A DNA stretch of 64,000 bases, taken from assembly GCA_947492585.1 (NCBI GenBank), contig CANLND010000004.1, positions 62,001 to 126,000 of the forward strand, given 5' to 3'. Positions within the stretch are counted from its first letter, which is position 1. Each line of letters begins with the position of its first letter. Source of the DNA: an uncultured Paracoccaceae bacterium (GTDB lineage Bacteria > Pseudomonadota > Alphaproteobacteria > Rhodobacterales > Rhodobacteraceae). Positions 13,407 through 47,926 of this stretch are shown here, one piece after another. Made by a program: the position numbers and the translations under genes. The notes below the pieces were generated by a model. The model was given only the letters and a program-made list of their open reading frames with translations. It was not told the DNA's origin and did not search any database.

Positions 13407-13482
13407 GGAGGGGCGCTGCCCCTCTTGGTCCCAAGAAATTTGGGACCAATTCACCCCGGGGTATTTCACGCCAAAAAGAGAA
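13407..13482 (+). repeat. Dispersed two-hairpin repeat, copy A
   Basis: Layout: hairpin 1 GAGGGGCGCTGCCCCTC (13408-13424); hairpin 2 TGGTCCCAA/TTGGGACCA (13426-13449); conserved tail ATTCACCCCGGGGTATTT then GCCAAAAAGAG. Related copies lie at 32841-32888 and 47861-47926. It sits between the convergent genes soeC and dapA. Confidence 0.8.
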
Positions 13483-13515
13483 AGGGCGGCACTCGAAGTT
13501 CGAGGCCGCCCTTTT
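13481..13515. terminator. Bidirectional terminator between soeC and dapA
   Basis: AAAGGGCGGC and GCCGCCCTTTT pair, with an inner CTCGAA/TTCGAG extension. T runs leave the stem in both directions, serving soeC (+) and dapA (-). Confidence 0.85.
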
Positions 13516-13536
13516 GTCATTTATCTGAAAGCGCTG

Positions 13537-14409
13537 TTACAGCAGGTCAGCGTGCTTCAGCGCCGCATCCAGCGCCGCTTTGGTGCTGTCTTCGAGACCG
13601 GTCAGCGGCAAGCGCACCTCGTCAGAGCACAGGCCCAGTTTCGACAGGGCATATTTTGCACCGGCCACGCCGGGTTCGGTAAAGATCGCTTCGTGCAGGG
13701 GCATCAGGCGATCCTGATAGTCCAGTGCCTTGGCGTAATCCCCGGCCAATGTGGCCGCCTGGAATTCAGCACATAGGCGGGGGGCCACGTTTGCGGTGAC
13801 AGAAATGCAGCCAACGCCACCGTGGGCATTAAAGCCCAAAGCAGAGGCATCTTCGCCGGACAGCTGCATGAAATCAGGGCCGCAGGTCGCGCGCTGTTGG
13901 CTGACGCGAGCGATGTCTCCTGTGGCGTCTTTGACCCCAATGATGCGCGGCAGTTTCGACAGTTCACCCATAGTGGCGGGGGACATATCGACAATCGACC
14001 GGCCAGGAATATTGTAGATGACAATCGGCAGGTCTGCACAATCGTGCAGCGCTTTATAATGCGCCAACATGCCGCGCTGCGTTGGCTTGTTGTAGTAGGG
14101 CGTGACAACCAAAGCCGCATCTGCGCCTGCTTTGGCGGCAAATTCAACCAAACGAATGGCATCAACCGTGTTGTTAGATCCTGCGCCCGCAATCACCGGG
14201 ACCCGGCCAGCGGCTGCCTTAACGACCGCTTCGACGACCAGTTCGTGCTCTTCCAGCGACAGGGTGGGGCTTTCACCGGTGGTGCCCACGGGCACCAATG
14301 CGGACGAACCTTCACCGATGTGCCATTCGACCAAGTGTTTGAGCGCGTCAAGATCCAGCTCACCGTTGCGAAACGGGGTGACGAGGGCTGGCATAGAGCC
14401 TTTGAACAT
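13537..14409 (-). CDS. dapA: 4-hydroxy-tetrahydrodipicolinate synthase
   Basis: Class I aldolase of 290 residues. It condenses pyruvate and aspartate semialdehyde on the way to lysine and meso-diaminopimelate. Visible signature: GTTGESPTL (the Thr pair of the active site), YNIPGR (Tyr), and [10 protein letters not shown] with the Schiff-base lysine. The start at 14409 has AGGAGCG before it and gives [13 protein letters not shown], the normal length; a frame from 14496 would add 29 unrelated residues. It is divergent from slt, an order common in Rhodobacteraceae that links peptidoglycan precursor supply and turnover. Confidence 0.95.
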
Positions 14410-14535
14410 GATGCGCGCTCCTATCATGAGACTGGCGAGAATTCGCCGTTTGGGGAATGGACATACCGGAGAATTGAATTGATACCGGGCCGTCACAAGT
14501 TATCGTCACAGGCTCTAGCCCCGAGTCACTGGAAA

Positions 14536-16503
14536 ATGCAAGTGAAGAGACACGTCCTGCCGCTGATTGCCCTCATTTTGGCAATCTTTATCTCTCCCAC
14601 AGCCTTTGCGCGGGGGCTTTCGGATGCGATGAAACAGGTCCATGCTGAAAACTGGACGGCGGGATTGCGCGCCGCTGGACCGCGCAACAGTGTGACACGC
14701 GATGTGGTGGAATGGCACCGCCTGCGAACAGGGAACGGCAGCGCAGATGACGCATTGGACTTTTTGTCCCGACGCCCGGATTGGCCGGGTCTGGGCCTGT
14801 TGCGAAGACGTAGCGAACAAAAGTTGGAACAGGCCCGCCCCGAGGTGGTCCTCCGTTTCTTTGCACAGGATCCGCCCCAGACAGCCCTAGGTGCCTTGGC
14901 CTATGCGCGTGCGCTTAACGCTACCGGACATCCCAATGACGCCAAGGCCCAGATCATCCGGGCCTGGCGTCAATTTGCCATGCACAGCACGTTACACGAC
15001 CGGTTTATGGCCGAACACAGCCGTCTGTTGGCACCCATACACGGCGAACGCCTGAACAGCCTGTTGTGGCAAAACCATTTGGTCAGCGCCAAACGCATGT
15101 TGCCGCTGGTCTCCGCCTCGGATCGTGCCCTGGGCGAGGCCCGGATCGGACTGCAAGAGAAATCCAAATCCGTAGATACGCTCATCGCCGCCGTGCCAGA
15201 GCGCTTACACCGTTCAGCAGGTCTGGCCTATGATCGCTTTGCCTGGCGCGACGGCAAACGGCGACAAGAGGATGCGATCGTGTTGATGCTGGACCACAGC
15301 ACCAGCAAAGAGGCCTTGGGGCAGCCCGCAAAATGGCTGCGACGGCGGCGTGATTTTGCCCGTCAGGACATGCGGGACGGCAACAATGAACGCGCCTATC
15401 AGCTCGCAGCCTTTCATTTCAGCACGCCCGATGACGGCTATGGCTTTGCGGACAGTGAATGGCTGGCAGGGTATATCGCACTGCGCAAACTGAATGATCC
15501 CGAATTGGCAGCCTATCACTTGGAACGTTTTCTGACGGCCGTGAAATCCCCGATTTCCATTGGCCGGGGCGGCTATTGGCTGGGTCAGGCTTATGCCGCT
15601 GTTGGCGATGCGGAACGCGCTCATGCCGCCTATGCCACGGCTGCCGCCTATCAGACCTCCTTTTATGGCCTACTCGCGGCTGAGGCGCTGGGGCGCCCGT
15701 TTGATCCTGCACTGCAAACGCCGGAGATATCGACAAACTGGCGACAGGCCCCGTTTATGAACAGTTCGGTGACGCAGGCCGCGCTTGAACTTTTGGCCGC
15801 AGGCGAAGTGTCACTGGCCGAACGCTTCCTGACCCATTTAGTGGAAACCCTGCCCGTAGATCAGGCCCATCAGCTGGGGCATATGGTTCTGGAAATGAAA
15901 CAGCCGCATTTGGCCGTGATGATCTCAAAACGGGCCGCATCGCGGGGGCTCGAATTAAAAGGGGTTTATTACCCGCTGCACCCCGTTGCCGATCGCAAAC
16001 TGGCTATGGCCAAAGAAATGACTCTGGCCATTTCCCGCCGCGAAAGCGAATTTGACCCGGTTGTCGTCAGCCATGTGGGCGCGCGCGGGTTGATGCAGCT
16101 GATGCCCGGAACGGCCACACTGGTCGCCGATGAACTGGGCCTGTCTGCGCAGCACGAAACGGCGCGACTGACACAAGACTGGCCCTACAACGCCAAACTG
16201 GGCGCGCAGTATCTTGCGGGTCTGGCCAAGACCTTTGACGGCAATGTGGTGATGATGGCGGCCGGCTACAACGCAGGCCCGCACAGGCTGCCCAATTGGA
16301 TCGAACGCTATGGCGATCCACGCACGGGCCAGCCCAATATCGTCGACTGGATTGAACACATCCCGTTCAATGAAACCCGCAACTATGTGATGCGCGTCAC
16401 CGAAAGCCTGCCGGTCTATCGCGCCCGGTTGGGCAAAGATCCCCTGCCCCTGCCGTTTTCTCAGGAACTGGCAGGATCAACCCTGAAGGCGTTCGCGCCA
16501 TAA
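14536..16503 (+). CDS. slt: Soluble lytic murein transglycosylase
   Basis: Periplasmic enzyme of 655 residues that cleaves the MurNAc-GlcNAc bond of peptidoglycan, making 1,6-anhydromuropeptides. A signal peptide (LPLIALILAIFISPTAFA) is followed by a long alpha-helical superhelix region to about residue 490 and a C-terminal goose-lysozyme-like domain: RRESEF (catalytic Glu about 503), GARGLMQLMPGTA and AGYNAGPHR. The ATG at 14536 is chosen because it starts the signal peptide; the same frame is open 240 codons further up but lies in dapA. The end overlaps the convergent permease gene by 27 bp. Confidence 0.92.
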   Translation: MQVKRHVLPLIALILAIFISPTAFARGLSDAMKQVHAENWTAGLRAAGPRNSVTRDVVEWHRLRTGNGSADDALDFLSRRPDWPGLGLLRRRSEQKLEQARPEVVLRFFAQDPPQTALGALAYARALNATGHPNDAKAQIIRAWRQFAMHSTLHDRFMAEHSRLLAPIHGERLNSLLWQNHLVSAKRMLPLVSASDRALGEARIGLQEKSKSVDTLIAAVPERLHRSAGLAYDRFAWRDGKRRQEDAIVLMLDHSTSKEALGQPAKWLRRRRDFARQDMRDGNNERAYQLAAFHFSTPDDGYGFADSEWLAGYIALRKLNDPELAAYHLERFLTAVKSPISIGRGGYWLGQAYAAVGDAERAHAAYATAAAYQTSFYGLLAAEALGRPFDPALQTPEISTNWRQAPFMNSSVTQAALELLAAGEVSLAERFLTHLVETLPVDQAHQLGHMVLEMKQPHLAVMISKRAASRGLELKGVYYPLHPVADRKLAMAKEMTLAISRRESEFDPVVVSHVGARGLMQLMPGTATLVADELGLSAQHETARLTQDWPYNAKLGAQYLAGLAKTFDGNVVMMAAGYNAGPHRLPNWIERYGDPRTGQPNIVDWIEHIPFNETRNYVMRVTESLPVYRARLGKDPLPLPFSQELAGSTLKAFAP

Positions 16504-17343
16504 CGTGAACAGTCCCGCTCCAACGACAATTCCTGCACCGATGATCACATTGGTGGGCAGGCTTTCGCCAAAAATTGTTACCCCTAAAACTGCGACGAAC
16601 GGCAGATGCAGATAGGCAAATGGCTGCACCGCGCTGGCTTCGGCCGCCTCATAGCATTTGATCAGCACCCAATGCCCCAACGCGCTGACAACTGCCAGTA
16701 GAGCCATCCATCCCCAATCCCCCACAGCCATGGGTTCCCAGTACCACAGCCCCAGCGGCGTCAGCATGACGCATCCAACACTCCCCATATAAAAGAACGA
16801 CGTCTCTGAGCTGTCCTTGCGCGACACATATCGTGTCAGCAGGCCATAAACCGCAAACATCAGCGCAGCCCCCAGCGGCACCAAGGCGGCAATCTTGAAC
16901 ACACCGCTGCCGGGTTGCAAAATGACCAGCACTCCAAGGAAACCAACGGCAATCGCGCACCAACGGCGCCACCCTACGGTTTCGCCCAGAATTGGGCCGG
17001 ACAGCGCCGCAATCAGCAAGGGATTGCACACAAACACCGCATGGCTTTGCACCAGTCCAAATAAGGTAAAGGCCACAACCATGACGCAGATCTCAGCCGC
17101 GAGGATAAACCCGCGAAAGATCTGTATTAACCGCTGTTGACTGCCAGCAACGCGCCGTATTCCGCCCGGTTTTGAGGCCGCCAAGACCAGAACAAAGGCC
17201 ACCAAAAACCAATAGCGGATCATCACCACCATAAAGACGTTGTAATGCGCAGCCAGATGCCGCGACAACGCATCCATCACAGCGACAAGCAGCGTAAAGA
17301 CGATCATCAACGCAATGCCACGCCGCGTGTTGGTCTCGCTCAT
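16477..17343 (-). CDS. EamA-family (DMT) transporter
   Basis: Inner-membrane protein of 288 residues with ten predicted helices in two EamA halves; VMDALSRHLAAHYN and RYWF mark the first half, GESLPTNVIIGAGIVVGAGL the last. Substrates of such carriers vary from amino acids to S-adenosylmethionine and cannot be read from the sequence. The ATG at 17343 overlaps the mnmD stop by four bases (ATGA), so the two genes are translationally coupled. It overlaps the 3' end of slt by 27 bp. Confidence 0.85.
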   Translation of the reverse strand: MSETNTRRGIALMIVFTLLVAVMDALSRHLAAHYNVFMVVMIRYWFLVAFVLVLAASKPGGIRRVAGSQQRLIQIFRGFILAAEICVMVVAFTLFGLVQSHAVFVCNPLLIAALSGPILGETVGWRRWCAIAVGFLGVLVILQPGSGVFKIAALVPLGAALMFAVYGLLTRYVSRKDSSETSFFYMGSVGCVMLTPLGLWYWEPMAVGDWGWMALLAVVSALGHWVLIKCYEAAEASAVQPFAYLHLPFVAVLGVTIFGESLPTNVIIGAGIVVGAGLFTLWRERLQG

Positions 17344-18014
17344 GTCGTGGTTTTGGTGGCGCGGGTCATATGGCGTTTGCGGCCATATCCGGGGGTCCGG
17401 GCAACAGTAAATCCTGCATCCTCCAACCCGCGCCGCACAAATCCTGCCGCTGTGTAGGTCGCCGCAGTGCCATCCGATTTGGTGTGATCCGCAACCGCCT
17501 GCATCAGATCGGCCCCCCAAAGTTCGGGATTTTTCGCGGGTGAAAACCCATCTAGAAACCACGCATCCACCGATTGATCCCATCCGGGCAGAGATTGCCG
17601 CGCATCGGCGATGATCACCTCAAGATGCAGTGTCTCCAGTTTCAGTTCACCACCTCCGCTCCAAACCGCAAGAAACCGATCCGCCCAAGGTTTGATCTCA
17701 GGAAAGGCTTCAAGCGCGCGCGCCATATCGGCAGGGTCCATCGGAAAGGCTTCGAAACTGGTGAATCGTAGCGGAGTGGTCTGGCCTGACTGCTCCCACG
17801 CGCGCCAGACGGTCAGCATGTTCAAACCGGTGCCAAACCCCAGTTCGGCAACGTGAAACCCAGCCCCAAACCGCGCGGGCAGATCATTACCCGCCAGAAA
17901 CACGTGCTCCGTCTCGGCCAGCCCGTTGTGAATCGAAAAATACGGGTCATCAAATTGTTCAGACACCGGAATTCGTTCATCACGCCAGCTAAGACATGCC
18001 GTCTGGTCGGCCAT
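17340..18014 (-). CDS. mnmD: tRNA wobble-uridine methyltransferase MnmD (MnmC N-terminal domain alone)
   Basis: SAM-dependent methyltransferase of 224 residues corresponding to the first half of E. coli MnmC. It converts aminomethyl- to methylaminomethyl-(2-thio)uridine at tRNA position 34. Motifs: SIHNGLAETEHVFLAGN, VAELGFGTGLN (SAM site) and WFLDGFSPAKNPELW. It stands alone, with the second-half enzyme on the opposite strand 60 bp away. A four-base overlap couples it to the EamA gene downstream. Confidence 0.9.
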   Translation of the reverse strand: MADQTACLSWRDERIPVSEQFDDPYFSIHNGLAETEHVFLAGNDLPARFGAGFHVAELGFGTGLNMLTVWRAWEQSGQTTPLRFTSFEAFPMDPADMARALEAFPEIKPWADRFLAVWSGGGELKLETLHLEVIIADARQSLPGWDQSVDAWFLDGFSPAKNPELWGADLMQAVADHTKSDGTAATYTAAGFVRRGLEDAGFTVARTPGYGRKRHMTRATKTTT

Positions 18015-18074
18015 GGATTATTCCCCTAAATGACTGTGAGTGGACCGGGCGTACACTGGCGAAAGGGCGCAGAA

Positions 18075-19115
18075 ATGACAATGGCAGATGTAACCATACG
18101 TGGGGCTGGTGTCTTTGGCCTGTCTATTGCGTGGCGCTGCGTTCAATTGGGCGCGCGGGTTCAGCTGGTGGATCCGTTTGGCGCAGGGGCTGGCAGCAGC
18201 GGCGGCGTGGTGGGTGCGTTGGCTCCGCATGTGCCGGAAAACTGGAACACAAAAAAGGCCTTTCAATTCGAAAGCCTGATGATGGCCGAAGGATTTTGGA
18301 CAGAAGTCGAAGCGGCCGGGGGGCAGCCGACGGGCTATGGTCGCACCGGTCGGTTGCAACCCATTAATGACGCGGCCGCACTGACGCTGGCGCATGCCCG
18401 CTCTGAAAACGCCAAAACCCTCTGGCAGGGCAAAGCGCATTGGACTGTAATCCCCGCCGACGGCCTTGGCCCCTGGGCTCCGCCCAGCGCCAGCGGATTT
18501 GTGATCCACGACACGTTGTCCGGCCGGATGCACCCCCGGTGCACATGTGGTGCACTGATAGCAGCCCTCAGATCCAAAGGGGTGACGCTGGTCCCAGAGG
18601 GCCCAGATCACGGCGCGGTGGTCCACGCCAAAGGATATGCCGGATTGATAGAGCTGAACCAAGGGCGCAGCCGGATCATGGGGGCCGGAGTCAAAGGACA
18701 GGGCGCGGTTTTGCGCTATGATGCCCCCGACGCCCCCCAGCTGTTTGCCGATGCTCTGCACATCATTCCCCACGCCAATGGCACGGTTGCGATTGGATCT
18801 ACCACCGAGCGTGAATTTGACAGCCCCAACACCACAGACGCCCAGCTTGAAGACGTAATCACCCGCGCCCGCGCGGCCTTTCCCGTGTTACAGGAGGCGC
18901 CCGTCATCGAACGCTGGGCTGGCGTGCGGCCGAGGTCGCGTTCACGGGCGCCGATGCTGGGAGCGATCCCCGATAAGCCGGGCCATTACATCGCCAATGG
19001 CGGCTTCAAAATCGGCTTTGGCATGGCCCCCAAGGTCGCGCATGTGATGGCGGATCTGATCCTGAACACGCGCGATCAGATCCCCGAGGGCTTCCGCTTT
19101 GAAGACAATCTGTAA
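18075..19115 (+). CDS. FAD-dependent oxidoreductase, MnmC C-terminal-domain-like
   Basis: DAO-family flavoprotein of 346 residues with an N-terminal FAD-binding motif (IRGAGVFGLSIAW) and a C-terminal GGFKIGFGMAPKVA block. In fused MnmC the equivalent domain removes the carboxymethyl group from cmnm5U34. Its position, divergent from mnmD with a 60-bp shared promoter region, supports that role, but glycine-oxidase-like functions of DAO proteins remain possible. ATG 18075 follows AAGGGCG; an earlier ATG at 18030 lies in the promoter gap. Confidence 0.75.
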   Translation: MTMADVTIRGAGVFGLSIAWRCVQLGARVQLVDPFGAGAGSSGGVVGALAPHVPENWNTKKAFQFESLMMAEGFWTEVEAAGGQPTGYGRTGRLQPINDAAALTLAHARSENAKTLWQGKAHWTVIPADGLGPWAPPSASGFVIHDTLSGRMHPRCTCGALIAALRSKGVTLVPEGPDHGAVVHAKGYAGLIELNQGRSRIMGAGVKGQGAVLRYDAPDAPQLFADALHIIPHANGTVAIGSTTEREFDSPNTTDAQLEDVITRARAAFPVLQEAPVIERWAGVRPRSRSRAPMLGAIPDKPGHYIANGGFKIGFGMAPKVAHVMADLILNTRDQIPEGFRFEDNL

Positions 19116-19118
19116 CGC

Positions 19119-19661
19119 TTAGCGTGCGATTTCGGCGCGCAGCGCATCCATCAACGATTGCAGCGTCGCGGTGTAGTGTTCACTGGTCAGACGGTCTTGA
19201 TCGTCAAATTCTTTATAGGACGCAGCCAGATGCACCGAAGGTCCGGCCAGCACACGCGGTTGAAACGGTTGCAAATATCCTCGCAATGCGGCCTGCGCCA
19301 CCTCTCCACCTGACCGACCCGCCGCAGCTGACATCACCGCCACGGGCTTGTCTGCCCAAGGGTTCCCTTCAGTCCGGCTGACCCAATCCAGCGCGTTTTT
19401 CAGAACACCTGACGGGGCCTTGTTGTACTCAGGCGTCGAAATCAGAACCGCATCCGCTGCAGTGATTTGATCTGCCAGCGTTTGAACATTGCCCGGTACG
19501 CCGTCCCGCTCTTCAAGGTCCCCATCATAAAGTGGCAAGTTTAGATCCGCCTGTTGTACGGTGGCATCCCCAAACAAACGGGCCGCTTCGCGCAGCAATT
19601 TGGTGTTGGTGGCCGCCTTGCGCAGAGACCCCGAAATCAGCAGAATTTTCAGCGACGACAT
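19119..19661 (-). CDS. NADPH-dependent FMN reductase
   Basis: Flavodoxin-like protein of 180 residues with the LLISGSLRKAATNTKLL phosphate-binding loop and STPEYNKAPSGVLKNALDW flavin-contact block. Such enzymes (ChrR/YieF/AzoR-like) reduce quinones, chromate or azo compounds with NAD(P)H and help in oxidative stress. AAAGGAG precedes the ATG. It converges tightly with the mnmC2-like gene, only 3 bp between stops. Confidence 0.85.
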   Translation of the reverse strand: MSSLKILLISGSLRKAATNTKLLREAARLFGDATVQQADLNLPLYDGDLEERDGVPGNVQTLADQITAADAVLISTPEYNKAPSGVLKNALDWVSRTEGNPWADKPVAVMSAAAGRSGGEVAQAALRGYLQPFQPRVLAGPSVHLAASYKEFDDQDRLTSEHYTATLQSLMDALRAEIAR

Positions 19662-19762
19662 AACATGCTCCTTTGGCTGATCTGTGTATTACCCTGACTA
19701 TAAACTATATAAAAATGCACAAAACATGTAATACTGCGCATCGACATACGCATAGATGCACA

Positions 19763-19793
19763 AAAGGCCGGTCTTTATTCAAGACCGGCCTTT
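19763..19793 (-). terminator. Rho-independent terminator of the OmpA-type lipoprotein gene
   Basis: AAAGGCCGGTCTT and AAGACCGGCCTTT form a perfect 13-bp stem with a 5-base loop, 20 bp after the stop codon of the minus-strand gene. Confidence 0.9.
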
Positions 19794-19813
19794 CACAAAA
19801 ATACTGACTGCTA

Positions 19814-20473
19814 TCAGCCGCGTGGAATGACCACGATCTCAACCCGGCGATTGCGGGCTTTACCATCTGGCGTCAGGTTGCTGGCCACAGGTGCGTCTTC
19901 ACCGCGCCCCAGTGTCACGATCCGGCTGAACGGCACGCCGCCGGCCTGAATCAGGTCTGCGACAGAATTGGCCCGACGGACCGAAAGGTCCTGATTGTAC
20001 TGCGCTTCGCCGTCGCTGTCGGTGTGACCGATGACCTGAACGGTGCTGTCAGGATACCGCACAAGACTGTCCGCCACTTTCAACAGATCGCCACGCACCG
20101 CTTGGGCAACAACTGCGCTGTTGGTGTCAAAGGTCAGATCGTTGGGCAGGGACACGGTCAGCCGATCACCGGTGTTGACGATCGAGATCGAGTCATTGGC
20201 CAGTGTCTGGCGCAGCTCTGCCTCTTGTTTGTCCAGCTGATTGCCGATCAAACCACCAACAACAGCGCCCGCCGCTGCGGTGCCGATGACGGTTTCCGCT
20301 TTGTCGTCATCCGAGGTCAGCGCCCCAATACCCGCCCCAATCAGACCGCCAATAAGCGCGCCGTTTTTGGTTTTGGGTTTGTCCGACAGGTCCCACTGGG
20401 CCGGATCGGTACAGGCCGACAGGCCTACAACACCCGTCAGGGCTGCTATGGCGGTGATCTTGGAAATGCTCAT
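19814..20473 (-). CDS. OmpA-family peptidoglycan-binding lipoprotein
   Basis: Lipoprotein of 219 residues: signal peptide with lipobox LSAC (Cys21), a glycine-zipper segment (GALIGGLIGAGIGAL, then AAGAVVGGLIGNQ), and an OmpA C-terminal domain (FDTNSAVV, VIGHTDSDG, RRANSVADLI, RNRRVEIVV) that binds diaminopimelate in peptidoglycan. It resembles YiaD/Pal-type outer-membrane lipoproteins. The start at 20473 is set by the signal peptide and AAGGACATAGG; the longer frame to 20626 has no signal. It is monocistronic with its own terminator. Confidence 0.9.
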   Translation of the reverse strand: MSISKITAIAALTGVVGLSACTDPAQWDLSDKPKTKNGALIGGLIGAGIGALTSDDDKAETVIGTAAAGAVVGGLIGNQLDKQEAELRQTLANDSISIVNTGDRLTVSLPNDLTFDTNSAVVAQAVRGDLLKVADSLVRYPDSTVQVIGHTDSDGEAQYNQDLSVRRANSVADLIQAGGVPFSRIVTLGRGEDAPVASNLTPDGKARNRRVEIVVIPRG

Positions 20474-20634
20474 CCTATGTCCTTTTATTTTGTGGCACGC
20501 GTCTACCGGCGCTGCTCTTTCGGACAATATATCATGATGAACCCCGAAAGGCTCAAGAGAACGTGGGGAAATCTCGGCAAAATGCCGCCCATCTGAACAA
20601 AAGCGGCCACGGTTGTGACGGATCACGCCAGCAG

Positions 20635-21483
20635 TTAGGGCGTGCCCTCCTGCAACTGGGCCGTTTCATAGGCCAGCATGGCGCGTTTCACCGGCAGGCC
20701 CCAATGATAGCCGCCAAGCGCCCCGGATTTGCGCAACGCACGATGGCAGGGAATGATCCAACTGATTGGATTGCGGCCCACGGCGGTGCCCACGGCCCGC
20801 ACAGCCTTGGGCGCGCCCACAGCGCGGGCCAATTCGGAATACGTCGTGACATGCCCGGACGGGATCCGCAGCAACGCCTCCCAGACCTTGATCTGCAAAG
20901 GTGCCCCAATCAAATGCAGGGCTGCTTCACCGTTTTGGCGAAAACAAGCCGCGGCCCAGCCCTGCAACCGGTCTGTCTGTTCGGTGAACTCTGCCTGCGG
21001 CCATCGGCTGCGCATATCGGCCTCGGCCACCTCACGACCGGTTTCCGCGCCAAAGGCCATGCCACAGATCCCCTTCCCCGTTGCCATAACAAGAGCGTCT
21101 CCAAAGGGGCTGTCAAACCACCCCCAATAGATCGTCAGCCCCGCGCCTTTTTGTGCGTATTCACCGGGACTCATAGCCTCCCAGCGCAGAAACAGATCAT
21201 GCAACCGCCCAGACCCCGACAGCCCAACCGCGTGAGCGGTGTCCAACGTGCTGAAGCGATCACGCAACAGATGTTTGGCATGATCCAGCCGCAGAAACTG
21301 CTGGTATCGTTTGGGCGACACACCAACCCAGGCCGAAAACAAGCGCTGAAAATGGGCGGTGCTCATGCCCATCTGGGCGGCCAGCTGATCCAGCGACAGA
21401 TCCTGTCCCTGGGCATCAATCAATTCAATGGCGCGCCGTATGACGCCATAATGATACGATGTGTCTGATGTGTCCGGGGTCAT
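20635..21483 (-). CDS. AraC-domain / methylated-DNA-protein cysteine methyltransferase (Ada-like)
   Basis: Fusion of 282 residues: an AraC-type helix-turn-helix (about 10-105; MGMSTAHFQRLFSAWVGVSPK) and a C-terminal O6-alkylguanine transferase with the suicide-cysteine motif PCHRAL and the preceding PSGHVTTYSELA. It lacks the N-terminal phosphotriester domain with its zinc cysteines, so it is shorter than E. coli Ada. The ATG at 21483 is preferred because GGAG stands 6 bp before it; a TTG start at 21495 would use that site as coding sequence. Repairs alkylated DNA and may regulate its own expression. Confidence 0.87.
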   Translation of the reverse strand: MTPDTSDTSYHYGVIRRAIELIDAQGQDLSLDQLAAQMGMSTAHFQRLFSAWVGVSPKRYQQFLRLDHAKHLLRDRFSTLDTAHAVGLSGSGRLHDLFLRWEAMSPGEYAQKGAGLTIYWGWFDSPFGDALVMATGKGICGMAFGAETGREVAEADMRSRWPQAEFTEQTDRLQGWAAACFRQNGEAALHLIGAPLQIKVWEALLRIPSGHVTTYSELARAVGAPKAVRAVGTAVGRNPISWIIPCHRALRKSGALGGYHWGLPVKRAMLAYETAQLQEGTP

Positions 21484-21661
21484 CTGCGTCTCCAATCCGT
21501 GCCGTGAGATCCTAATAACGGGATCAGCGCCAACGCGACCCGAAAGCTGCGCAATTGTGTCGCGTCTTATAGAGATTTCCCGCTATATTTCAAAAATCTG
21601 GGCCGGTGAGCCCGCGATTTTCAATTGCCCTTCATAATTTCCACTGTAGATAAGGCGCGCG

Positions 21662-23292: not shown

Positions 23293-23330
23293 ACGCGGTC
23301 TGCACTAAACCTAGGCACCCTCACCCGCAG

Positions 23331-32840: not shown

Positions 32841-32888
32841 ACCGGGGCGCTGCCCCGGACCCCGGGGTATTTTAGGCCAAAAAGAAGC
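32841..32888 (+). repeat. Dispersed repeat, copy B (one-hairpin form)
   Basis: Hairpin CCGGGGCGCTGCCCCGG (32842-32858) followed directly by ACCCCGGGGTATTTTAGG and CCAAAAAGAAGC. It matches copies A and C but lacks their second hairpin. It lies between the convergent genes map and the HAD phosphatase. Confidence 0.8.
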
Positions 32889-38767: not shown

Positions 38768-38850
38768 GGCTGTAATCCTTGTTCAGCTTCATTTTGCGCA
38801 GGCTAATCCCCCAGTTCAAAAGCGAAAAGCCCAAATGCGAACCCAAAACA

Positions 38851-38876
38851 AAAACGCGCGCCCTCAGGCGCGCATT
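38851..38876 (-). terminator. Terminator of the type I secretion operon
   Basis: On the minus strand GCGCGCC, TGA, GGGCGCGC and then GTTTTTG, 15 bp after the HlyD-type stop codon. Confidence 0.8.
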
Positions 38877-38890
38877 TTATTGTGTTTGGA

Positions 38891-40195: not shown

Positions 40196-41955
40196 GCGAC
40201 GCTCCCGGTTTTGGCGACAACTTTGGGCTCGGATTGAGCGGCTTTTTGAATGTTTTGATGATTGGAAACCATTTCGCGCAACACTGTGTCCTTGGGACCA
40301 AACGCCACCTGTGTACCGCCTTCGATAACCAAAAGCATATCACATTCCTGAATAGCAGCCGGACGGTGGGCCATAATCAAGACCGAGCGCCCCTCTTCTT
40401 TCATTGTTTTGATGGCCTTGTTCAGCGCCAAAGAGCCTTCGTTGTCGAGATTGGAATTGGGTTCATCCAAGATGACAATTGCGGGATCCGCATACAAGGC
40501 ACGCGCCAATCCAACACGCTGCATCTGCCCCCCTGACAGACGACCACCGCCACCGGCGATTGGGGTGTCGTAGCCATAGGGCAGTTTCAGGATCATCTCA
40601 TGCGCGGCCGCTTTATTTGCGGCGGCAACAACCAGTTCTGAGCTGGGCGATTGCGCCAAACGCGCAATATTCTGGGCAACACTGCCTTCAAACAGCTGCA
40701 CGCGCTGCGGCAAATATCCGATGTGCTGGCCCAATACATCCGGCGCGAATTGATCCAACGATGCACCATCCAGACGCACGGTTCCCGCCGCAGGACGCCA
40801 CGCCCCGGTGAGCGCACGTGCCAAGGTCGACTTTCCAGATCCCGACGGACCAATAACCCCAATGGCCTGTCCCGGTTGAACCCGAAAGTTCACGTTGCGC
40901 AGCTGCGGGCGCGTTTCCCCCGGAGCCACAACCGCCAGGCCCTTCACCTCAAGCATAGCTTTGGGTTTGGGCAGTTCAGTCCGAGGCTGTTCTACGGGAA
41001 CTTTGGTCAGCAGTTCGCCCAAGCTGTTCCAGCCTTTGATGGCGCGCTGTACCATGGCCCATTGTCCCAGACCCTGCTCAATCGGTGCCAAAGCACGCCC
41101 CATCAGAATAGAGCCAGCAATCATCGCACCCGGTGTCACATCGCCCTGCAACACCAAATAGGCCCCAAGGCCCAGCATGGCAGACTGAAGGAACAAACGC
41201 AGCGTTTTGGTCAGCGTAGAAAACCCGCCGCCCATGTCGCTTGCGGTCACCGTATCTGACAGCGCAGAATCACGCGCAGTTTTCCAGCGTTCAAATGCCG
41301 CCCCGCGCATACCCATCGATTGGATCATTTCGGCTTCGTTGCGGATCTCTTCCGACAAGAGAGACGCCTTATGGGACGACACATTTGCCTCTTGTTGTGG
41401 TTTGCGCGTTGTCAGCTGGTTGATCAATGCGATCACCACAAGAACTGACCCACCAGCAACTGCGAGCATTCCGAGCCACGGGTGAAACAGCGCGATCCCC
41501 GCAAGGAAGATTGGCGTCCATGGCAGATCATATGCTGACGTCAAAACTGGAGAGGCCATAAGGCGCTGCACCGACTCAAGGTCGGCAAGCCCGGTTTGTG
41601 CCGCAGGGTCGTTGGCCACGGCAGATCGGCGAATCATCGCGTCAAAGACACGTTTATCCATTCTGGCCTGGAAGCGCGCGCCCACCCGAGACATCACCCG
41701 GCCGCGCACGTAATCCAAGATTCCCATCATTCCATAAAGGAACACAACAAGAATGGAGAGCGCCAGCAAGGTCGCCTCAGAACGGCTCCCAAGCACCCGA
41801 TCATAGACCTGCATCATATAGAGCGGTCCGGTAAGCATCAGAAGGTTAACGAAAAAGCTGAAAAGGCCCACGGCCCAATACAGACGGCGGCTTTCACGGC
41901 GCGCATCGCGTAATTCGTTCAAACCGACTTGATATTCATGTTTTGACATAGACAA
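40192..41955 (-). CDS. Type I secretion ABC transporter (PrtD/AprD type)
   Basis: Permease/ATPase of 587 residues: six membrane helices (about 25-300), then an ATP-binding domain with Walker A GPSGSGKSTLARAL, signature LSGGQMQRVGLARAL and Walker B IVILDEPNSNLD. There is no N-terminal C39 peptidase domain, which fits export of RTX proteins with an uncleaved C-terminal signal. No substrate gene and no TolC gene are adjacent. Confidence 0.93.
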   Translation of the reverse strand: MSMSKHEYQVGLNELRDARRESRRLYWAVGLFSFFVNLLMLTGPLYMMQVYDRVLGSRSEATLLALSILVVFLYGMMGILDYVRGRVMSRVGARFQARMDKRVFDAMIRRSAVANDPAAQTGLADLESVQRLMASPVLTSAYDLPWTPIFLAGIALFHPWLGMLAVAGGSVLVVIALINQLTTRKPQQEANVSSHKASLLSEEIRNEAEMIQSMGMRGAAFERWKTARDSALSDTVTASDMGGGFSTLTKTLRLFLQSAMLGLGAYLVLQGDVTPGAMIAGSILMGRALAPIEQGLGQWAMVQRAIKGWNSLGELLTKVPVEQPRTELPKPKAMLEVKGLAVVAPGETRPQLRNVNFRVQPGQAIGVIGPSGSGKSTLARALTGAWRPAAGTVRLDGASLDQFAPDVLGQHIGYLPQRVQLFEGSVAQNIARLAQSPSSELVVAAANKAAAHEMILKLPYGYDTPIAGGGGRLSGGQMQRVGLARALYADPAIVILDEPNSNLDNEGSLALNKAIKTMKEEGRSVLIMAHRPAAIQECDMLLVIEGGTQVAFGPKDTVLREMVSNHQNIQKAAQSEPKVVAKTGSVA

Positions 41956-42162
41956 ACTGCTGTTTTGCTTCGGCTGATATATAGGTCATTGGACCTCTAA
42001 CCGACATTGTTTTTTAATGGGGATGTTTCAAATGTGCCACAAACCGCCAAACTAAGGGAATTTGCCCCTGTGAACAGGAAAAAATACTCTTATGTCTGGC
42101 AAAAGTTTTTCGGCGCCACATATCACATATGGCTGCCCGGCCCGAACATGAGATGAACACAG

Positions 42163-42924
42163 ATGACACTGACGAAACGCTCGCTTTTCACAGCAGCTGC
42201 CTTGGCCCTTGCGGTCCTGACAACCGGTTGCGCGACCCAAAGCCCCGAAGCGCTGGCTGCGGGCGAAATTCGTGACCCACACGAAAAGCGCAACCGCACC
42301 GTTCACGCGTTCAACCGCGGCGTCGATCGCTATGCGTTCCGCCCGGCCTCCAAGGGCTATGTCTCTGTGGTCCCGCCAGACATGGTGACCAGCTTTGGCT
42401 ACTTTGCCGAGAATCTCTCGATGCCAGGCCAAGCCGTGAACTCTCTGTTGCAGGGGAATGTCAAACAAGCGGGCATTGCCTTGTCCCGGTTTGCCATCAA
42501 CACGGTTCTGGGCATTGGTGGCTTGGGGGATCCAGCGTCCGACTTCAACGTGCCCGCTGTCGACACCGATTTCGGCGAGACCCTGCATGTCTGGGGAGTC
42601 GGTGAGGGCTCTTATGTTGAATTGCCTGTCTTGGGCCCCTCCACGGCGCGGGATGCGACCGGTTTTGTCGTCGACCTGTTCACCAACCCGCTTGGTTACG
42701 CTCGGAACAATCCCGCCGAAAACATCGACATTTACGCCGAAGTGGTGCGCCGCCTCGGGGATCGTGGCACATATTCAGACACAGTGGATTCAATCTTGTA
42801 TGAAAGCGCCGACAGCTACGCGCAGGCGCGCCTCATCTATTTGCAAAACCGCCGGTTTGAACTGGGCCAAACCTCGGAAACCTCCGAAATTGATCCGTTT
42901 GAACTGGATACAGAAGGGTTCTAA
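42163..42924 (+). CDS. mlaA: MlaA (VacJ) outer-membrane lipoprotein
   Basis: Lipoprotein of 253 residues with lipobox LTTGC (Cys23) and family blocks RTVHAFNRGVDRYAF, LSMPGQAVNSLLQGNVKQ and GIGGLGDPASDF. It takes misplaced phospholipids from the outer leaflet and passes them to MlaC for return to the inner membrane. The mlaFED transporter is not nearby. Confidence 0.93.
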   Translation: MTLTKRSLFTAAALALAVLTTGCATQSPEALAAGEIRDPHEKRNRTVHAFNRGVDRYAFRPASKGYVSVVPPDMVTSFGYFAENLSMPGQAVNSLLQGNVKQAGIALSRFAINTVLGIGGLGDPASDFNVPAVDTDFGETLHVWGVGEGSYVELPVLGPSTARDATGFVVDLFTNPLGYARNNPAENIDIYAEVVRRLGDRGTYSDTVDSILYESADSYAQARLIYLQNRRFELGQTSETSEIDPFELDTEGF

Positions 42925-43514
42925 TGATGTATCGCCGTACATTTCTGGCTGGCCTTGGCGCCACACTCACCTTTGCCCCGCACGCCGCTTTGGCGCTCAA
43001 CAACGATGAAGCGCGCGCGCTGATCAATCAGCTTGTCGGCGATATCAATGGTGTTATCGATGCGGGCAAGGGCGAAAAAGCCATGTTCCGCGAATTTGAG
43101 CGCATCTTTTCCAGCTACAGCGACACGTCTTATATTTCAGCTTATGCACTGGGCGTCGAAGCCCGTCGCGCCTCCAAAAGCCAGAAAAAGGCGTTTTCCA
43201 AGGCCTTCCAAAGCTACATTGCCCGTAAATATGGCCGCCGCTTCCGCGAATTCATTGGAGGTCGTTTGGAAGTGACCAACGTCAAAAAGGTCAAAAAGTG
43301 GTACGAAGTGCAGACCGTGGCATACCTCAAAGGGCAATCCCCGTTTGAGGTCACCTTTCAGGTCTCCAACCGCTCGGGCAAGAACCGCTTCTTTAATATG
43401 TACATCGAGGGCGTAAATCTGCTGCTCACGGAGCGTACAGAAATCGGCGCGATCATCGATCGCAACAAGGGTGATCTGGACAAGACCATCCGGCAGCTGA
43501 AATCACTGGGCTAA
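42924..43514 (+). CDS. mlaC: MlaC-family periplasmic phospholipid-binding protein
   Basis: Protein of 196 residues with a signal peptide (LAGLGATLTFAPHAALA) and the Tgt2/MlaC domain (FRREFIGGRLEV-like block, VTFQVSNRSGKNRFFNMYIEG). It shuttles phospholipids between MlaA and the MlaFEDB transporter. Its ATG shares one base with the mlaA stop (TAATG). Confidence 0.9.
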   Translation: MMYRRTFLAGLGATLTFAPHAALALNNDEARALINQLVGDINGVIDAGKGEKAMFREFERIFSSYSDTSYISAYALGVEARRASKSQKKAFSKAFQSYIARKYGRRFREFIGGRLEVTNVKKVKKWYEVQTVAYLKGQSPFEVTFQVSNRSGKNRFFNMYIEGVNLLLTERTEIGAIIDRNKGDLDKTIRQLKSLG

Positions 43515-43537
43515 TCTGCGCCCAATCGCTCTTATGC

Positions 43538-43565
43538 AAAAGGCCCCATACTGGGGCCTTTTTTG
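43538..43565 (+). terminator. Rho-independent terminator after mlaC
   Basis: AAAGGCCCC and GGGGCCTTTTTT pair around ATACT, with a T run. Confidence 0.9.
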
Positions 43566-43600
43566 TGTTTAACCCGAAGGCATGATCGCAACGGCACGCT

Positions 43601-45850
43601 TTAGCCTCCAAAAATACCGCGCAGCACATTGTCGATTGCACCGCCCAACCCCTGGCCGTTTTGCCGACGACGTTCCCGTTGCGGGGTGGGTTGTGGAGCA
43701 GGTTGCGGAGTGGTGGGCTGGATTTCTCGGGCGATGGGCTGTGGTTCAGCCATGGGCAACGGACGGGCAGGAAGGCCCTCATGCACGCGCAGCATGGTTT
43801 CCCGCCAGATTTCAGCCGGAAGCCCGCCGCCCGTAACCCCTGTGAGCGGGGTGTTGTCATCATAGCCCATCCAGACCCCCGCCACGTAATCAGCCGTAAA
43901 GCCAATGAACCAGGCATCACGCGCAGCTTGGGTGGTGCCAGATTTTCCCGCGGCCTGCCGCCCTGGCAATTGCGCCCGCGTCCCGGTGCCACCTGCAATG
44001 ACTTTCTCCATCATCCAGGTGAGCTGCTGTGCTGCGTTACGCTGGATCACCCGCTCGCCAATACCGGTTTCGTTGCGGATCAAGGCCTCGCGGTCCTCAA
44101 GCAATTTCAGCTCAACCAGACCGTAAGGCGCAACCGAAGAGCCACCGTTCAGAATGCCCGCATAAGCGCCAGTCATCTCCAACAGGCTGCTTTCCGATGC
44201 GCCAAGCGCAAGCGCAGGTCCATCGGCCAGATCGCTGGCAATACCAAAATCTCCGGCAACCTTGCGTACCAGATCCCGGCCCACAGCCTCGGACAGTTTA
44301 ACAGCCGGAACGTTTAATGAATCGCGCAACGACCGCGTCAGCGTCACATCGCCATAATATTTATGGGTATAGTTCTTGGGGCACCATTGGCCCGAACCCG
44401 GAATATTCAAACAATATTCCGCATCGCGCACCAGATCAAACGGGGAATACCCAAGCTCAAGCGCGGTGGCATAGACAAAGGGTTTAAACGATGACCCAGT
44501 CTGACGTTTCGCCTGCGTGGCACGGTTAAACACACCGGACACCCGTGTTTGCCGCCCTCCTACCATGGCCCGCACTGCACCATCGGCGCTCATCACCACA
44601 ATCGCGGCCTGCGCTTTAGAACCTTTGCGAACCTTGGTCTCAAAGATATGGTCCATTGCCTCTTCGGTGGCGCGTTGCAACCGCTGATCAAGTGTCGTCT
44701 TGATCACCACGTCCTCTGTCGTGTCCTGACCAAAGAAATCGGGAATGGTATCCATCACCCAATCGGCAAAATAGCCCCCCGCGCGCGCCTGCGCCGCCTT
44801 GGAAAGGGTCGCGGGGTTGGTCTGACTTGCACGCATTTCAGCCACGCTCAGATAGCCTTGCTCTTGCATCAGGCGCAAAATGGTGGCCGCGCGGTCTTGG
44901 GAGCGTTTCAGATTGTTGGTCGGGGACAAAGTCGATGGCGCCATCAGCAAGCCCGCCAGCATCGCGCTTTCGGCAGCATTCACCTGATCCGCTGATTTCC
45001 CGAAATAGCGCTGCGTTGCCGCCTCAACACCATAAGCCCCGCCGCCCAGATACGCGCGGTTCATATAAATCGAAAGGATTTCATCCTTGGTGTACTTTGC
45101 CTCAAGCGCCAGCGCATAAATCGCTTCTTTGATTTTGCGCCCCAAAGATCCCCGGCGGCAATCGCGCTCATAAGCGGCCTCATTCTTCCACTTGGTAGGA
45201 TCAAACTCGACCCCCAGACAGATCAGTTTTGCGGTCTGTTGCGTAAGAGTAGACCCGCCATGACCTGACAATGGTCCACGCCCTTCCCGCAGGTTGATGC
45301 GCACGGCAGATGCGACCCCGCGCGGGCTAAGACCAAAATGGGAATAAAACCGTTTGTCTTCGGTGGCGACAAAAGCGTTCTTCAAATGCGGTGATACCGT
45401 TTCAGTTGTCACCACGCCGCCGAACTGGTCGCCGCGCCACGCGTATACTTCGCCCGTGTGATCCAACAGCGTCACAGAGCCGCGCGCGCGTCCATCCACC
45501 AGCGCACGGGCCTCGGGCAATCCGATATAGACGTTGGCCACCGCGACGGCGATCACCACCGCAACAATGGCCCCCGCCCGCCAGCTGATCCGCCAGGCCA
45601 AGGCAAATACCCAACTACACAGACGCAGGACCATCCCAAGCACTCCGCGCCGCGCGGGGCGTTTCGCCGGTCGCGCCGGGGCGCGCCTGGGCGCCGCCTT
45701 CCCCCGGGTTTTCTGCGTTTTGGATTTCGCGAACAGACCCAACAGACCGTTTTTCTTGGCCTTCGGCTTGCGTGCCGGTTTGCGCTTGGGCGCCGTCTTT
45801 CCATACCGCTTATCTGCCACAAGCGGCGTACGCCCTGATTTTTGTGCCAT
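43601..45850 (-). CDS. Class A penicillin-binding protein (PBP1-type)
   Basis: Bifunctional peptidoglycan synthase of 749 residues. A basic, low-complexity cytoplasmic tail of about 75 residues precedes one membrane helix (about 80-110). The GT51 glycosyltransferase domain has ATEDKRFYSHFG and GGSTLTQQTAKL; the transpeptidase has the Ser motif TGSSFKPF, then SLN in DSLNVPAVK, and KSGTTQAARDAWF. The very Lys/Arg/Pro-rich N-terminus is longer than in E. coli PBP1A, and there is a proline/glutamine-rich C-terminal tail. Confidence 0.93.
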   Translation of the reverse strand: MAQKSGRTPLVADKRYGKTAPKRKPARKPKAKKNGLLGLFAKSKTQKTRGKAAPRRAPARPAKRPARRGVLGMVLRLCSWVFALAWRISWRAGAIVAVVIAVAVANVYIGLPEARALVDGRARGSVTLLDHTGEVYAWRGDQFGGVVTTETVSPHLKNAFVATEDKRFYSHFGLSPRGVASAVRINLREGRGPLSGHGGSTLTQQTAKLICLGVEFDPTKWKNEAAYERDCRRGSLGRKIKEAIYALALEAKYTKDEILSIYMNRAYLGGGAYGVEAATQRYFGKSADQVNAAESAMLAGLLMAPSTLSPTNNLKRSQDRAATILRLMQEQGYLSVAEMRASQTNPATLSKAAQARAGGYFADWVMDTIPDFFGQDTTEDVVIKTTLDQRLQRATEEAMDHIFETKVRKGSKAQAAIVVMSADGAVRAMVGGRQTRVSGVFNRATQAKRQTGSSFKPFVYATALELGYSPFDLVRDAEYCLNIPGSGQWCPKNYTHKYYGDVTLTRSLRDSLNVPAVKLSEAVGRDLVRKVAGDFGIASDLADGPALALGASESSLLEMTGAYAGILNGGSSVAPYGLVELKLLEDREALIRNETGIGERVIQRNAAQQLTWMMEKVIAGGTGTRAQLPGRQAAGKSGTTQAARDAWFIGFTADYVAGVWMGYDDNTPLTGVTGGGLPAEIWRETMLRVHEGLPARPLPMAEPQPIAREIQPTTPQPAPQPTPQRERRRQNGQGLGGAIDNVLRGIFGG

Positions 45851-46104
45851 GCCTAGTTCCTGCCCGGTTTGCCCGTTTTCCCAACATTACACCCCTGAAT
45901 AAACAATGTAGAGGGGCCGAATGAGCGGATTTCCCCTTCGCTCAGCGCCCTAAATTTAATCATTGCGCAGAATTTGAGCAATTTTTTTAATCCCTGCCCT
46001 CTGTAGAGCACCCAAAAACCACCACGAACATTCCCCCGACTCGGTCCCCCCGCTTTTCTGCAGTCGCGAAATGAACGGGCGCAGGCCCAAACGAGGGTGT
46101 TGAG

Positions 46105-46443
46105 ATGAAAATGATCATAGCAGCCATCAAGCCCTTCAAGCTGGAAGAGGTCCGCGAAGCGCTGACCCAGATCGGCGTGTCGGGACTGATGGTGACAGAA
46201 ATCAAAGGCTTTGGTGCACAAGCCGGCCATACGGAAATCTATCGTGGCGCAGAGTACGAAGTGAACTTTGTCCCCAAGATTAAATTGGAAATCGTCGTGG
46301 CTGCCGATCAGGCCGATCAGGTTGTTGACACGATCACCCAGACCGCCCGCACCGGCAAGATTGGCGACGGCAAAATCTTTGTACTGGATGTGGCCCAGGC
46401 GGTTCGCGTGCGCACCGGCGAAACCAACCTAGAGGCGCTCTAA
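46105..46443 (+). CDS. glnK: Nitrogen regulatory PII protein
   Basis: Signal protein of 112 residues, trimer in the family. It has the T-loop RGAEYEVNF with the uridylylated Tyr51, and the C-terminal TGKIGDGKIFV ATP-binding block. Paired with amtB it acts as GlnK, blocking the ammonium channel when nitrogen is plentiful. The 254-bp upstream gap has no clear sigma-54 or NtrC site that I can see. Confidence 0.94.
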   Translation: MKMIIAAIKPFKLEEVREALTQIGVSGLMVTEIKGFGAQAGHTEIYRGAEYEVNFVPKIKLEIVVAADQADQVVDTITQTARTGKIGDGKIFVLDVAQAVRVRTGETNLEAL

Positions 46444-46468
46444 AGCGCCCTATTCGGAAGGAAATGAC

Positions 46469-47791
46469 ATGAAAAAATTCACCCTCCCCCTTGCCGCAGC
46501 CGCGCTGACCGCGCTGCCCGGCTTGGCGCTGGCGCAGGAGGCCGAGACGGGCCTGACCGCGCAGCACACGCAATACATTCTGACCTCGCTGCTGTTTCTG
46601 GTGGGTGGCTTTCTGGTGTTCTGGATGGCTGCTGGCTTTGCCATGCTCGAAGCTGGCCTCGTGCGGTCCAAAAACGTGACAATGCAGCTGACCAAAAACG
46701 TGGCGCTCTTTTCTCTCGCCGCCATCATGTACTGGCTGGTCGGCTTTAACCTGATGTACCCCGGCGACGCCTGGATCATCCCCGGCATCTTGGGCACATT
46801 CTCCCCCACCTCGCTGGAACCAGTTGGCCTCGCCGACACCCAAACTGCGCTGGATTACGCCTCAGTTGGGTCTGATTTCTTTTTCCAGCTGATGTTTTGT
46901 GCCACCACCGCGTCCATCGTCTCTGGCACCATGGCAGAGCGTGTGAAACTGTGGCCCTTCCTGTTGTTTGTCGTCGTTCTGACCGGCATCATCTACCCGA
47001 TCGAGGCCTCCTGGCAGTGGGGCGGCGGTTGGTTGTCTGAACTGGGCTTTTCTGACTTTGCTGGCTCAACCCTCGTGCACGCAGCTGGTGGTTTTGCCGC
47101 CCTCGCAGGTGCGATTGTTCTGGGCCCACGGATTGGCAAGTACAAAGACGGCCGCACCATCCCAATGCCCGGTTCCAACCTGGCGCTGGCCACTTTGGGT
47201 ACATTCATCCTGTGGCTTGGCTGGTTTGGCTTCAATGGCGGCTCACAGCTGGCAATGGGCACCATCGGTGACATGGCTGATATCTCCCGCATCTTTGCAA
47301 ACACCAATATGGCCGCTGCAGCCGGTGCTGTCACTGCGCTGATCCTGACCCAGGTGATGTTCAAAAAGCCTGACCTCACCATGATCCTAAACGGCGCGTT
47401 GGCCGGTCTGGTGTCGATCACTGCTGAACCTCTGGCACCCTCCCTATTCCAGTCGCTGATCATCGGCGCTGTGGGCGGTGGTATCGTAGTCTTTGCGGTT
47501 CCGTTCCTGGACAAGCTGAAAATTGACGACGTGGTCGGTGCTATTCCGGTTCACCTGATCGCAGGTTTCTGGGGAACCGTCGTCGTAGCTTGGACCAACT
47601 CAGACGCCAACGTTGTGACCCAGATCATCGGGTTTGCAGCCATCGGCGCCTTTGTCTTCGTGGTTAGCTTCATCGGCTTTGGCATCCTCAAAGCTGTGGT
47701 CGGCATCCGCGTCGACGAAGAAGACGAAGTCAACGGTCTCGACATGGCGGAACTGGGCATGGAAGCCTACCCTGAGTTCTCGACCACCTAA
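46469..47791 (+). CDS. amtB: Ammonium transporter
   Basis: Membrane channel of 440 residues with an N-terminal signal sequence (LPLAAAALTALPGLALAQ), eleven further helices and the Amt blocks MTKNVALF-like LTKNVALFSLAAIMYW, FAGSTLVHAAGGFAALAGA and HLIAGFWGT (pore histidines). It is 25 bp behind glnK in one operon, followed by a strong terminator. Confidence 0.96.
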   Translation: MKKFTLPLAAAALTALPGLALAQEAETGLTAQHTQYILTSLLFLVGGFLVFWMAAGFAMLEAGLVRSKNVTMQLTKNVALFSLAAIMYWLVGFNLMYPGDAWIIPGILGTFSPTSLEPVGLADTQTALDYASVGSDFFFQLMFCATTASIVSGTMAERVKLWPFLLFVVVLTGIIYPIEASWQWGGGWLSELGFSDFAGSTLVHAAGGFAALAGAIVLGPRIGKYKDGRTIPMPGSNLALATLGTFILWLGWFGFNGGSQLAMGTIGDMADISRIFANTNMAAAAGAVTALILTQVMFKKPDLTMILNGALAGLVSITAEPLAPSLFQSLIIGAVGGGIVVFAVPFLDKLKIDDVVGAIPVHLIAGFWGTVVVAWTNSDANVVTQIIGFAAIGAFVFVVSFIGFGILKAVVGIRVDEEDEVNGLDMAELGMEAYPEFSTT

Positions 47792-47811
47792 GTTCTAAAT
47801 CAAAAAAACCG

Positions 47812-47837
47812 AAAAGCCCGGCCAGCGCCGGGCTTTT
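47812..47837 (+). terminator. Rho-independent terminator after amtB
   Basis: AAAAGCCCGGC and GCCGGGCTTTTT pair around CAGC. Confidence 0.92.
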
Positions 47838-47860
47838 TCGCTTTCTCGACATCGGATCGG

Positions 47861-47926
47861 GCTTCTTTTTGGCCACAATACCCCGGGGTGAATGGCGCGT
47901 TTACGCGCCAGAGGGGCAGAGCCCCG
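47861..47926 (-). repeat. Dispersed two-hairpin repeat, copy C
   Basis: Read on the minus strand: GGGGCTCTGCCCC, then hairpin TGGCGCG/CGCGCCA with loop TAAA (47893-47910), then TTCACCCCGGGGTATT and GGCCAAAAAGAAGC. The order is the same as copy A, with a different but still paired second stem. It lies between the convergent genes amtB and the VOC protein. Confidence 0.8.

Follow-up and report, generated by a model that had tools for sequence, protein, structure and literature searches.

Background

The described repeats closest to the element reported here are the BoxC, PIT and TM_ECO repeats, which are extragenic and GC-rich, show no strand bias, occur in inverted pairs, and carry on one strand three tracts laid out for purine-motif triplets, with loops less conserved than stems (PMC4666352). 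In the wording of that paper the purine motif is formed by G over a G-C pair and by A or T over an A-T pair, with the third strand antiparallel; the repeats it describes have stems of nine, and TM_ECO is assigned to class II and lies more often upstream of open reading frames. A second group, the REP sequences of the GTAG and CGTC families, consists of dispersed short palindromes that lie for the most part downstream of genes, where the gap is convergent or unidirectional, and in which GT pairing is frequent (PMC3733652). Intrinsic terminators are also comparable in form: they too stand at gene ends and combine a GC-rich hairpin with a T-rich stretch behind it.

The element was found in a window (the whole stretch of 64,000 nucleotides analysed here) and shares with the BoxC, PIT and TM_ECO repeats all of the common properties just listed, and its bottom-strand pairing rule agrees with the published wording, but it departs from them in several respects (PMC4666352). 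Its order of third strand, purine and pyrimidine is that of class I; it has four to six triplets in place of stems of nine; its hinge, often a hairpin, reaches about 32 bases, outside the loops of one to six bases covered by the published search; it carries a fixed TATT...CCAAAAAG module that those repeats lack; and it prefers gene 3' ends. The element likewise lies outside the ITxF limits (stems of 6–15 nt, loops of 1–6 nt), with short-hinge copies coming closer. Its placement is REP-like, with 195 of 203 copies in convergent or co-directional gaps, and the CGTC families are, like it, without a known transposase (PMC3733652); unlike REP sequences it is bipartite with a covarying tract, and top-strand G.T pairs number zero in 214 second stems. 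In the aligned copies, judged by eye, there is no common GTAG or CGTC tag, and two of its three window copies, A and C, differ from intrinsic terminators in having a separate terminator-like hairpin beside them. We class the element as REP-like and triplex-type, one more variant among repeats of a kind already described. Literature searches with exact sequence strings (title and abstract start) or with the keywords repeat, REP and triplex gave no description of it among the papers listed, and one may exist elsewhere in print; Rhodobacter, Roseobacter and Paracoccus are not named in the main text of PMC4666352, and a term search of PMC12306157 gave no Rhodobacter, Paracoccus, Roseobacter, Ruegeria or Sulfitobacter.

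Results

Three window copies of a dispersed family

An earlier note on this DNA had reported copies of a repeat at three junctions, and all three are real (Table 1); the window contains three occurrences of CCCCGGGGTATT with at most one mismatch, where 0.25 would be expected, and none of 100 shuffles reaches three. The claim of shared sequence needs correction for CACCCCGGGGTATT (CACCCC), which is common to copies A and C only, copy B reading GACCCCGGGGTATT, while the second stem pairs in A and C as claimed and is missing from B. Copy A starts 13 bases past the stop of a dmsC-like gene and faces dapA, copy B lies 23 bases past the map stop at the map/HAD hydrolase junction, and copy C begins 11 bases past the stop of a glyoxalase-like gene and faces an ammonium transporter gene. 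Pfam and NCBIfam confirmed these neighbours as real genes, and with them the position of every copy between convergent genes. A known RNA family is rejected, since an Rfam 15 search of the window gave no match at the gathering score and in eight loci only four matches, all far below threshold.

Table 1. Copies of the element in the window, their parts, and hairpins beside them
Feature	Positions	Strand	Evidence
Copy A, two-hairpin form	13409..13482	+	sequence; model match 77.3 bits
Copy A, hairpin 1: arms AGGGGC and GCCCCT around loop GCT, with C (13416) as middle loop base	13409..13423	+	sequence, covariation
Copy A, hairpin 2: hinge stem of variable sequence; arms 13425-13434 and 13440-13449	13425..13449	+	sequence, covariation
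Copy A, third-strand tract ACCCC and block GGGG; first G (13458) tracks hairpin-1 loop	13453..13461	+	sequence, covariation
Copy A, tail module: TATT, variable spacer, GCCAAAAAGA	13462..13479	+	sequence
Terminator-like hairpin beside copy A, outside the element: GGGCGGC...GCCGCCC then TTTT	13484..13515		counterpart kept in G310
Copy B, one-hairpin form, hinge GGA	32843..32888	+	sequence; model match 53 bits; orthologous sites
Copy B, third-strand tract CCCC and block GGGG	32860..32867	+	sequence
Terminator-like hairpin beside copy C, outside the element: A run, GCCCGGC...GCCGGGC, T run	47812..47838		counterpart kept in G310
Copy C, two-hairpin form	47861..47926	-	sequence; model match 71.4 bits
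Copy C, hairpin 2: TGGCGCG, loop TAAA, CGCGCCA	47893..47910	-	sequence

The window copies are members of a dispersed family, with dozens of copies lying just after gene ends in Rhodobacteraceae. A covariance model built from 17 copies of the window's own genome (G000), which match it by construction, gives 77 matches there at E <=0.1, and an exact and a looser sequence pattern give 32 and 34 places, so that the expectation of many genomic copies was borne out by pattern and model alike. Among the 77 matches 15 carry a different head, treated below as the second head, and three others (L410, L414 and L418) a further head type, leaving about 59 own-genome copies with hairpin 1. At least one model match occurs in 47 of 61 genomes of the family, the own genome included; at most 85 candidates were scored per genome, and the high copy counts are therefore lower bounds. 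Within the window's genus 12 of 13 genomes have matches at E <=0.001, with 0 to 67 per genome, G299 being the sole genome without one. A scan of named-species genomes yielded at least 118 stretches with the element, and among the 80 loci listed from it nearly all are, going by genus names, Rhodobacteraceae. One record titled Enemella evansiae, an actinomycete, also carries the element (L229) and is probably a contaminated or mislabelled contig. A viral collection contained 15 stretches with the element, and a weakly sensitive search of plasmids, whose hosts are mostly unrelated, found it in 29 of 72,556 records. Copies also occur as oppositely oriented pairs a few to a few dozen bases apart, tail to tail at L002, L113, L116, L130, L131, L133, L137, L159, L161 and L162 and head to head at L167.

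Anatomy and the second head

Read on the top strand, the element opens with hairpin 1 (arms GGGGC and GCCCC around a three-base loop). A hinge follows, which is either a few bases long or a second hairpin, and after it come a C-tract, a block (GGGG, GGAG and others), TATT, a spacer and an A-rich block. Among 45 own-genome copies mean pairwise identity is highest for the arms (98%) and the A-rich block (97%), followed by the tract (96%), TATT (95%) and the block (92%), and it drops to 73% for the loop and 50% for the spacer; these figures are for the 45 of 62 own matches that could be parsed by fixed patterns, the other 17 not fitting. The inner spacer positions are mixed in 33 own-genome copies. 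With the free spacer so varied and the fixed positions nearly identical, the copies look old and maintained. Exceptions occur in the fixed parts as well, TATT being absent from 12 of 224 copies and the outermost arm pair unpaired in 8 of 62 own copies. The first-head block has dialects, with GGG in 43 of 43 copies in G000, GAG in 13 of 18 in G031 and 7 of 10 in G027, GGA in 9 of 12 in G016, and a mixture in G039 (4 and 3 of 7).

Across the fetched DNA the second head, GCCTCCGGC, precedes the same block, TATT and A-rich module at 39 distinct places, of which the own genome has 15 (L104, L108, L109, L406–L409, L411–L413, L415–L417, L419 and L420) and the window none. Its distribution at gene ends is similar to that of the first head, with one divergent gap among the 38 places that have two called neighbours. 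In the own genome the tail is common to both heads; in G027 the A-rich part differs between them. The second head has no evident triplex, which counts against the triplex reading given below, and one reader shared by the tails of both heads is an inference.

Position relative to genes

After leaving out 11 copies that overlap a called gene and 10 without a neighbour, 203 of 224 copies have two called neighbours (three second-head own matches included, L104 at 3490, L108 and L109). They lie in 94 convergent, 101 co-directional and 8 divergent gaps, compared with 15%, 56% and 29% among 543 element-free gaps of at least 40 bases in the window and in loci with numbers from L090 onwards; the predicted bias towards convergent 3' ends is thus present. 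In the window alone 10 of 46 such gaps are convergent, against 29 of 56 own-genome copies. In co-directional gaps the element is sense in 55 cases and antisense in 46 (p = 0.43), which shows no strand preference. Distances to the stop in sense contexts have medians of 13 and 15.5 bases with quartiles of 8–38 and 7–55. Gene calls for these counts came from a codon-bias script, the window neighbours being checked as above; in annotated plasmid records the element begins at most 18 bases past a same-strand annotated stop in three of four, and in the fourth, whose gene table is incomplete, it stands between divergent annotated genes.

Covariation of the second stem

The second stem varies in sequence and continues to pair. 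Over 62 own matches the structure score is 0.265, compared with 0.064 for shuffled and at most 0.069 for slid alignments, and all eight pairs of the stem show changes on both sides; the alignment was fitted to the model and so leans towards structure, and the number of further pair types, one of five covariation measures, is less telling, 37 of 500 shuffles reaching the observed value. Of 174 hinges 143 are 12 bases or longer, and 126 of these 143 distinct long hinges contain a perfect stem of at least five pairs, as do 5% of shuffled hinges. The covariation and the hinge stems together uphold the earlier note's reading of selection on structure, which it had left between RNA and DNA.

Mismatches in the stem favour one strand. 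Among 214 distinct second stems, single non-Watson-Crick pairs on the top strand are A.C in 13, T.C or C.T in 10, T.T in 2, C.C in 2, and A.G and G.G in one each, with no G.T. Top-strand A.C and T.C correspond on the bottom strand to G.T and G.A, which are better tolerated. The contrast of A.C with G.T is 13 to 0 (sign test, 2.4e-4) and becomes 23 to 1 (3e-6) with the G.A types included, T.C having been grouped with A.C after the data were seen; internal mismatches alone, small in number, are A.C 5, T.C 1, C.C 2 and G.T 0. The second-stem mismatches thus favour the bottom strand, 23 against 1. Copies bearing A.C are found in both gene orientations, including those in which the top strand is the transcript, which argues for DNA rather than the transcript. 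Of the two readings left open by the earlier note, a DNA strand is therefore favoured, together with the mirror evidence below, and a transcript disfavoured.

Hairpin 1 is coupled to the tract

The strongest links between hairpin and tail join the outer arm pair to the base that precedes the tract (mutual information 0.63 and 0.58 bits) and the middle loop base to the one that follows it (0.38 bits), the next hairpin-tail pair standing at 0.10 bits, in the 191 of 224 copies that have a three-base loop. Among 287 distinct GGGGC copies the third loop base is T in 270, and in these the combination of middle loop base with tract-end base is C/G in 240, T/A in 23, T/G in 4, and T/T, T/C and C/T in one each, the tract-end A being missing in 6 of the 29 with loop base T. 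When copies with loop base T were sought with the tract end left free, 38 rows were found in 16 of 71 genomes, ending in A in 28, G in 5, C in 4 and T in 1, so that A is missing in 10 of 38.

Arm and tract also agree in length and sequence. Arm runs of four to six occur in 284 of 287 copies, and the C-run of arm and tract is 4-4 in 77 of 82, 5-5 in 134 of 155 and 6-6 in 31 of 47; in the 72 cases with T next to a four-base run, A stands before the tract in 60, T in 11 and G in 1. Searches with the tract left free gave 53 rows with a GAGGC...GCCTC stem in 23 of 295 genomes, of which 45 carry an exact mirror of the 3' arm as tract, two more have A opposite an A-T pair and six misfit, the better of two block lengths being taken for each row; the same search with GGAGC...GCTCC gave three rows in three of 295 genomes, all three mirrored. 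Mirror symmetry is a requirement of triplexes, and Watson-Crick pairing does not give it. On this reading the three tracts of the strand are laid out for purine-motif triplets in 47 of 53 GAGG rows (26 of 32 distinct), in 3 of 3 GGAG rows and in 272 of 287 GGGG copies, the latter having a CCCC tract. The model and scan patterns were built on GGGG copies and may miss pyrimidine-containing stems, and the GAGG copies may descend from few events, yet they occur in at least three architectures.

Two other accounts of the coupling were tried and set aside. Worked out by hand, antiparallel Watson-Crick pairing between arm and tract does not hold for the combination of GAGG and CTCC. The GAGG and GGAG copies are compatible with a top-strand triplex of the pyrimidine motif, which would require stretches of protonated C. 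That motif has no place for A facing an A-T pair, whereas the purine motif allows it.

History at orthologous sites

Of 17 genomes of the genus, 7 have the element after map (one copy degenerate) and 10 lack it there, and one further genome gave no match. At junction A, dmsC and dapA stand side by side in G310, G293 and G303, each with a terminator-like hairpin and no intact element, though G310 has a short hairpin in its position. For junction C both neighbours are kept, among the loci read, in G310 only, which has the terminator-like hairpin and no element. The gap between iolC and iolD holds a copy in four of eight records, all Paracoccus, and none in two other Paracoccus, Thioclava and Ponticoccus. 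There P. yeei has arms and tract of six bases, and the three other species have four-base arms with tracts of three or four bases; the fit is poor for P. pantotrophus, whose tract is CCC, and for P. seriniphilus, whose loop is TTT and which has no A. In Aliiroseovarius crassostreae one copy is shared by all seven plasmids examined, of eight found; two of those seven (L427 and L429) also carry a MITE-like palindromic insertion of about 113 bases in the gap between a hydantoinase-like gene and putA.

Discussion

A purine-motif triplex on the bottom strand is, judged from sequence covariation, the best account of the coupling between hairpin and tract, and we propose how it might be built. The bottom strand, once single-stranded, would fold into an intrastrand triplex, in the order of T-rich flank and AATA, a base pairing with the hairpin loop, the G-tract, the hinge and hairpin 1; the G-tract would lie antiparallel along hairpin 1 in the triplets G.G-C, A.A-T and T.A-T, the hinge being either short or a second hairpin with no fixed sequence. 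A host factor, with a sequence preference that drifts from lineage to lineage, would recognise the folded strand next to the conserved TATT...CCAAAAAG module. The element would then have a local effect on the DNA at gene ends, as a REP-like structure that alters topology or blocks a polymerase, which is the least certain step. The copies, their placement, the covariation and the mismatch asymmetry are observed; we infer the fold from the covariation, and its presence in the cell and a protein reader are likewise proposals; the function is suggested by place and by analogy with REP and BoxC repeats, and a topology-related role, as the earlier note had put it, is possible. The number of triplets, four to six, counts against the reading, as it is low for a triplex that stands free. 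We give roughly even credence to the element being a Rhodobacteraceae-wide extragenic repeat whose bottom strand forms a purine-motif triplex, with a putative reader and a local role at gene ends. More tentative is the fuller proposal that selection keeps a family-wide triplex, as the reverse-Hoogsteen-code covariation would suggest, and that a lineage-specific reader sees the folded strand and the tail shared by the two heads.

The many dispersed copies, ranging so widely in number within one genus, their presence or absence at orthologous gaps, the strand-specific folding and the avoidance of divergent gaps as in published REPs (PMC3733652) would be expected of a non-autonomous, REP-type single-strand transposable element whose Y1/HUH-like transposase has become rare or been lost, gene ends being harmless places to insert. 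The PF01797 (Y1_Tnp) profile, which has matches in 5 of 14 control genomes, has none in the own genome (95.6% complete) despite the 77 element matches; the element-side search covered this genome only, and RAYT-driven mobility is weakened there only. The spacer varies widely while the fixed positions hardly differ, the A. crassostreae plasmids share a single copy, and the viral and plasmid counts also weigh against this account, which we consider unlikely. An RNA structure in the 3' UTR of the upstream gene, acting on stability or processing, would explain the closeness to stops and the sense orientation of all copies after map, but the antisense copies in co-directional gaps, the lack of top-strand G.T with A.C present where the top strand is the transcript, and the report that purine-motif triplexes do not form in RNA (PMC4666352) make it improbable.

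If the mirror and loop correlations were only marks of subfamilies, formed by ordinary descent without any triplex, tail dialects would differ between genomes, as they do, and descent structure of that kind exists; the loop and tract-end bases, though, stay linked while neighbouring positions mix, and several stem variants and lengths obey the mirror rule, which leaves this reading slightly less probable than an RNA structure. A lineage-specific transcription terminator, made of GC-rich hairpins followed by TATTT, agrees with the GC-rich stems before TATTT, with the enrichment in convergent gaps and with the second head, which has CCTCC-GGC-GGNGG directly before TATT. We give it the smallest chance: junctions A and C own separate terminator-like hairpins kept in relatives without an intact element, copies stand between co-directional iolC and iolD, and there is no strand preference. 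On the same grounds the intrinsic terminator role is rejected, and the transcription-end role suggested earlier is not supported.

Conclusions

Triplexes in bacterial DNA have so far been argued mainly from sequence potential and test-tube folding. If the triplex proposed here is true, hundreds of natural variants with joint changes in arm, third-strand tract and loop contact would make selection for a DNA triplex in the cell directly testable. The element would also offer a defined substrate for finding a protein reader and, for a large bacterial family, a candidate agent of local effects where convergent genes end.
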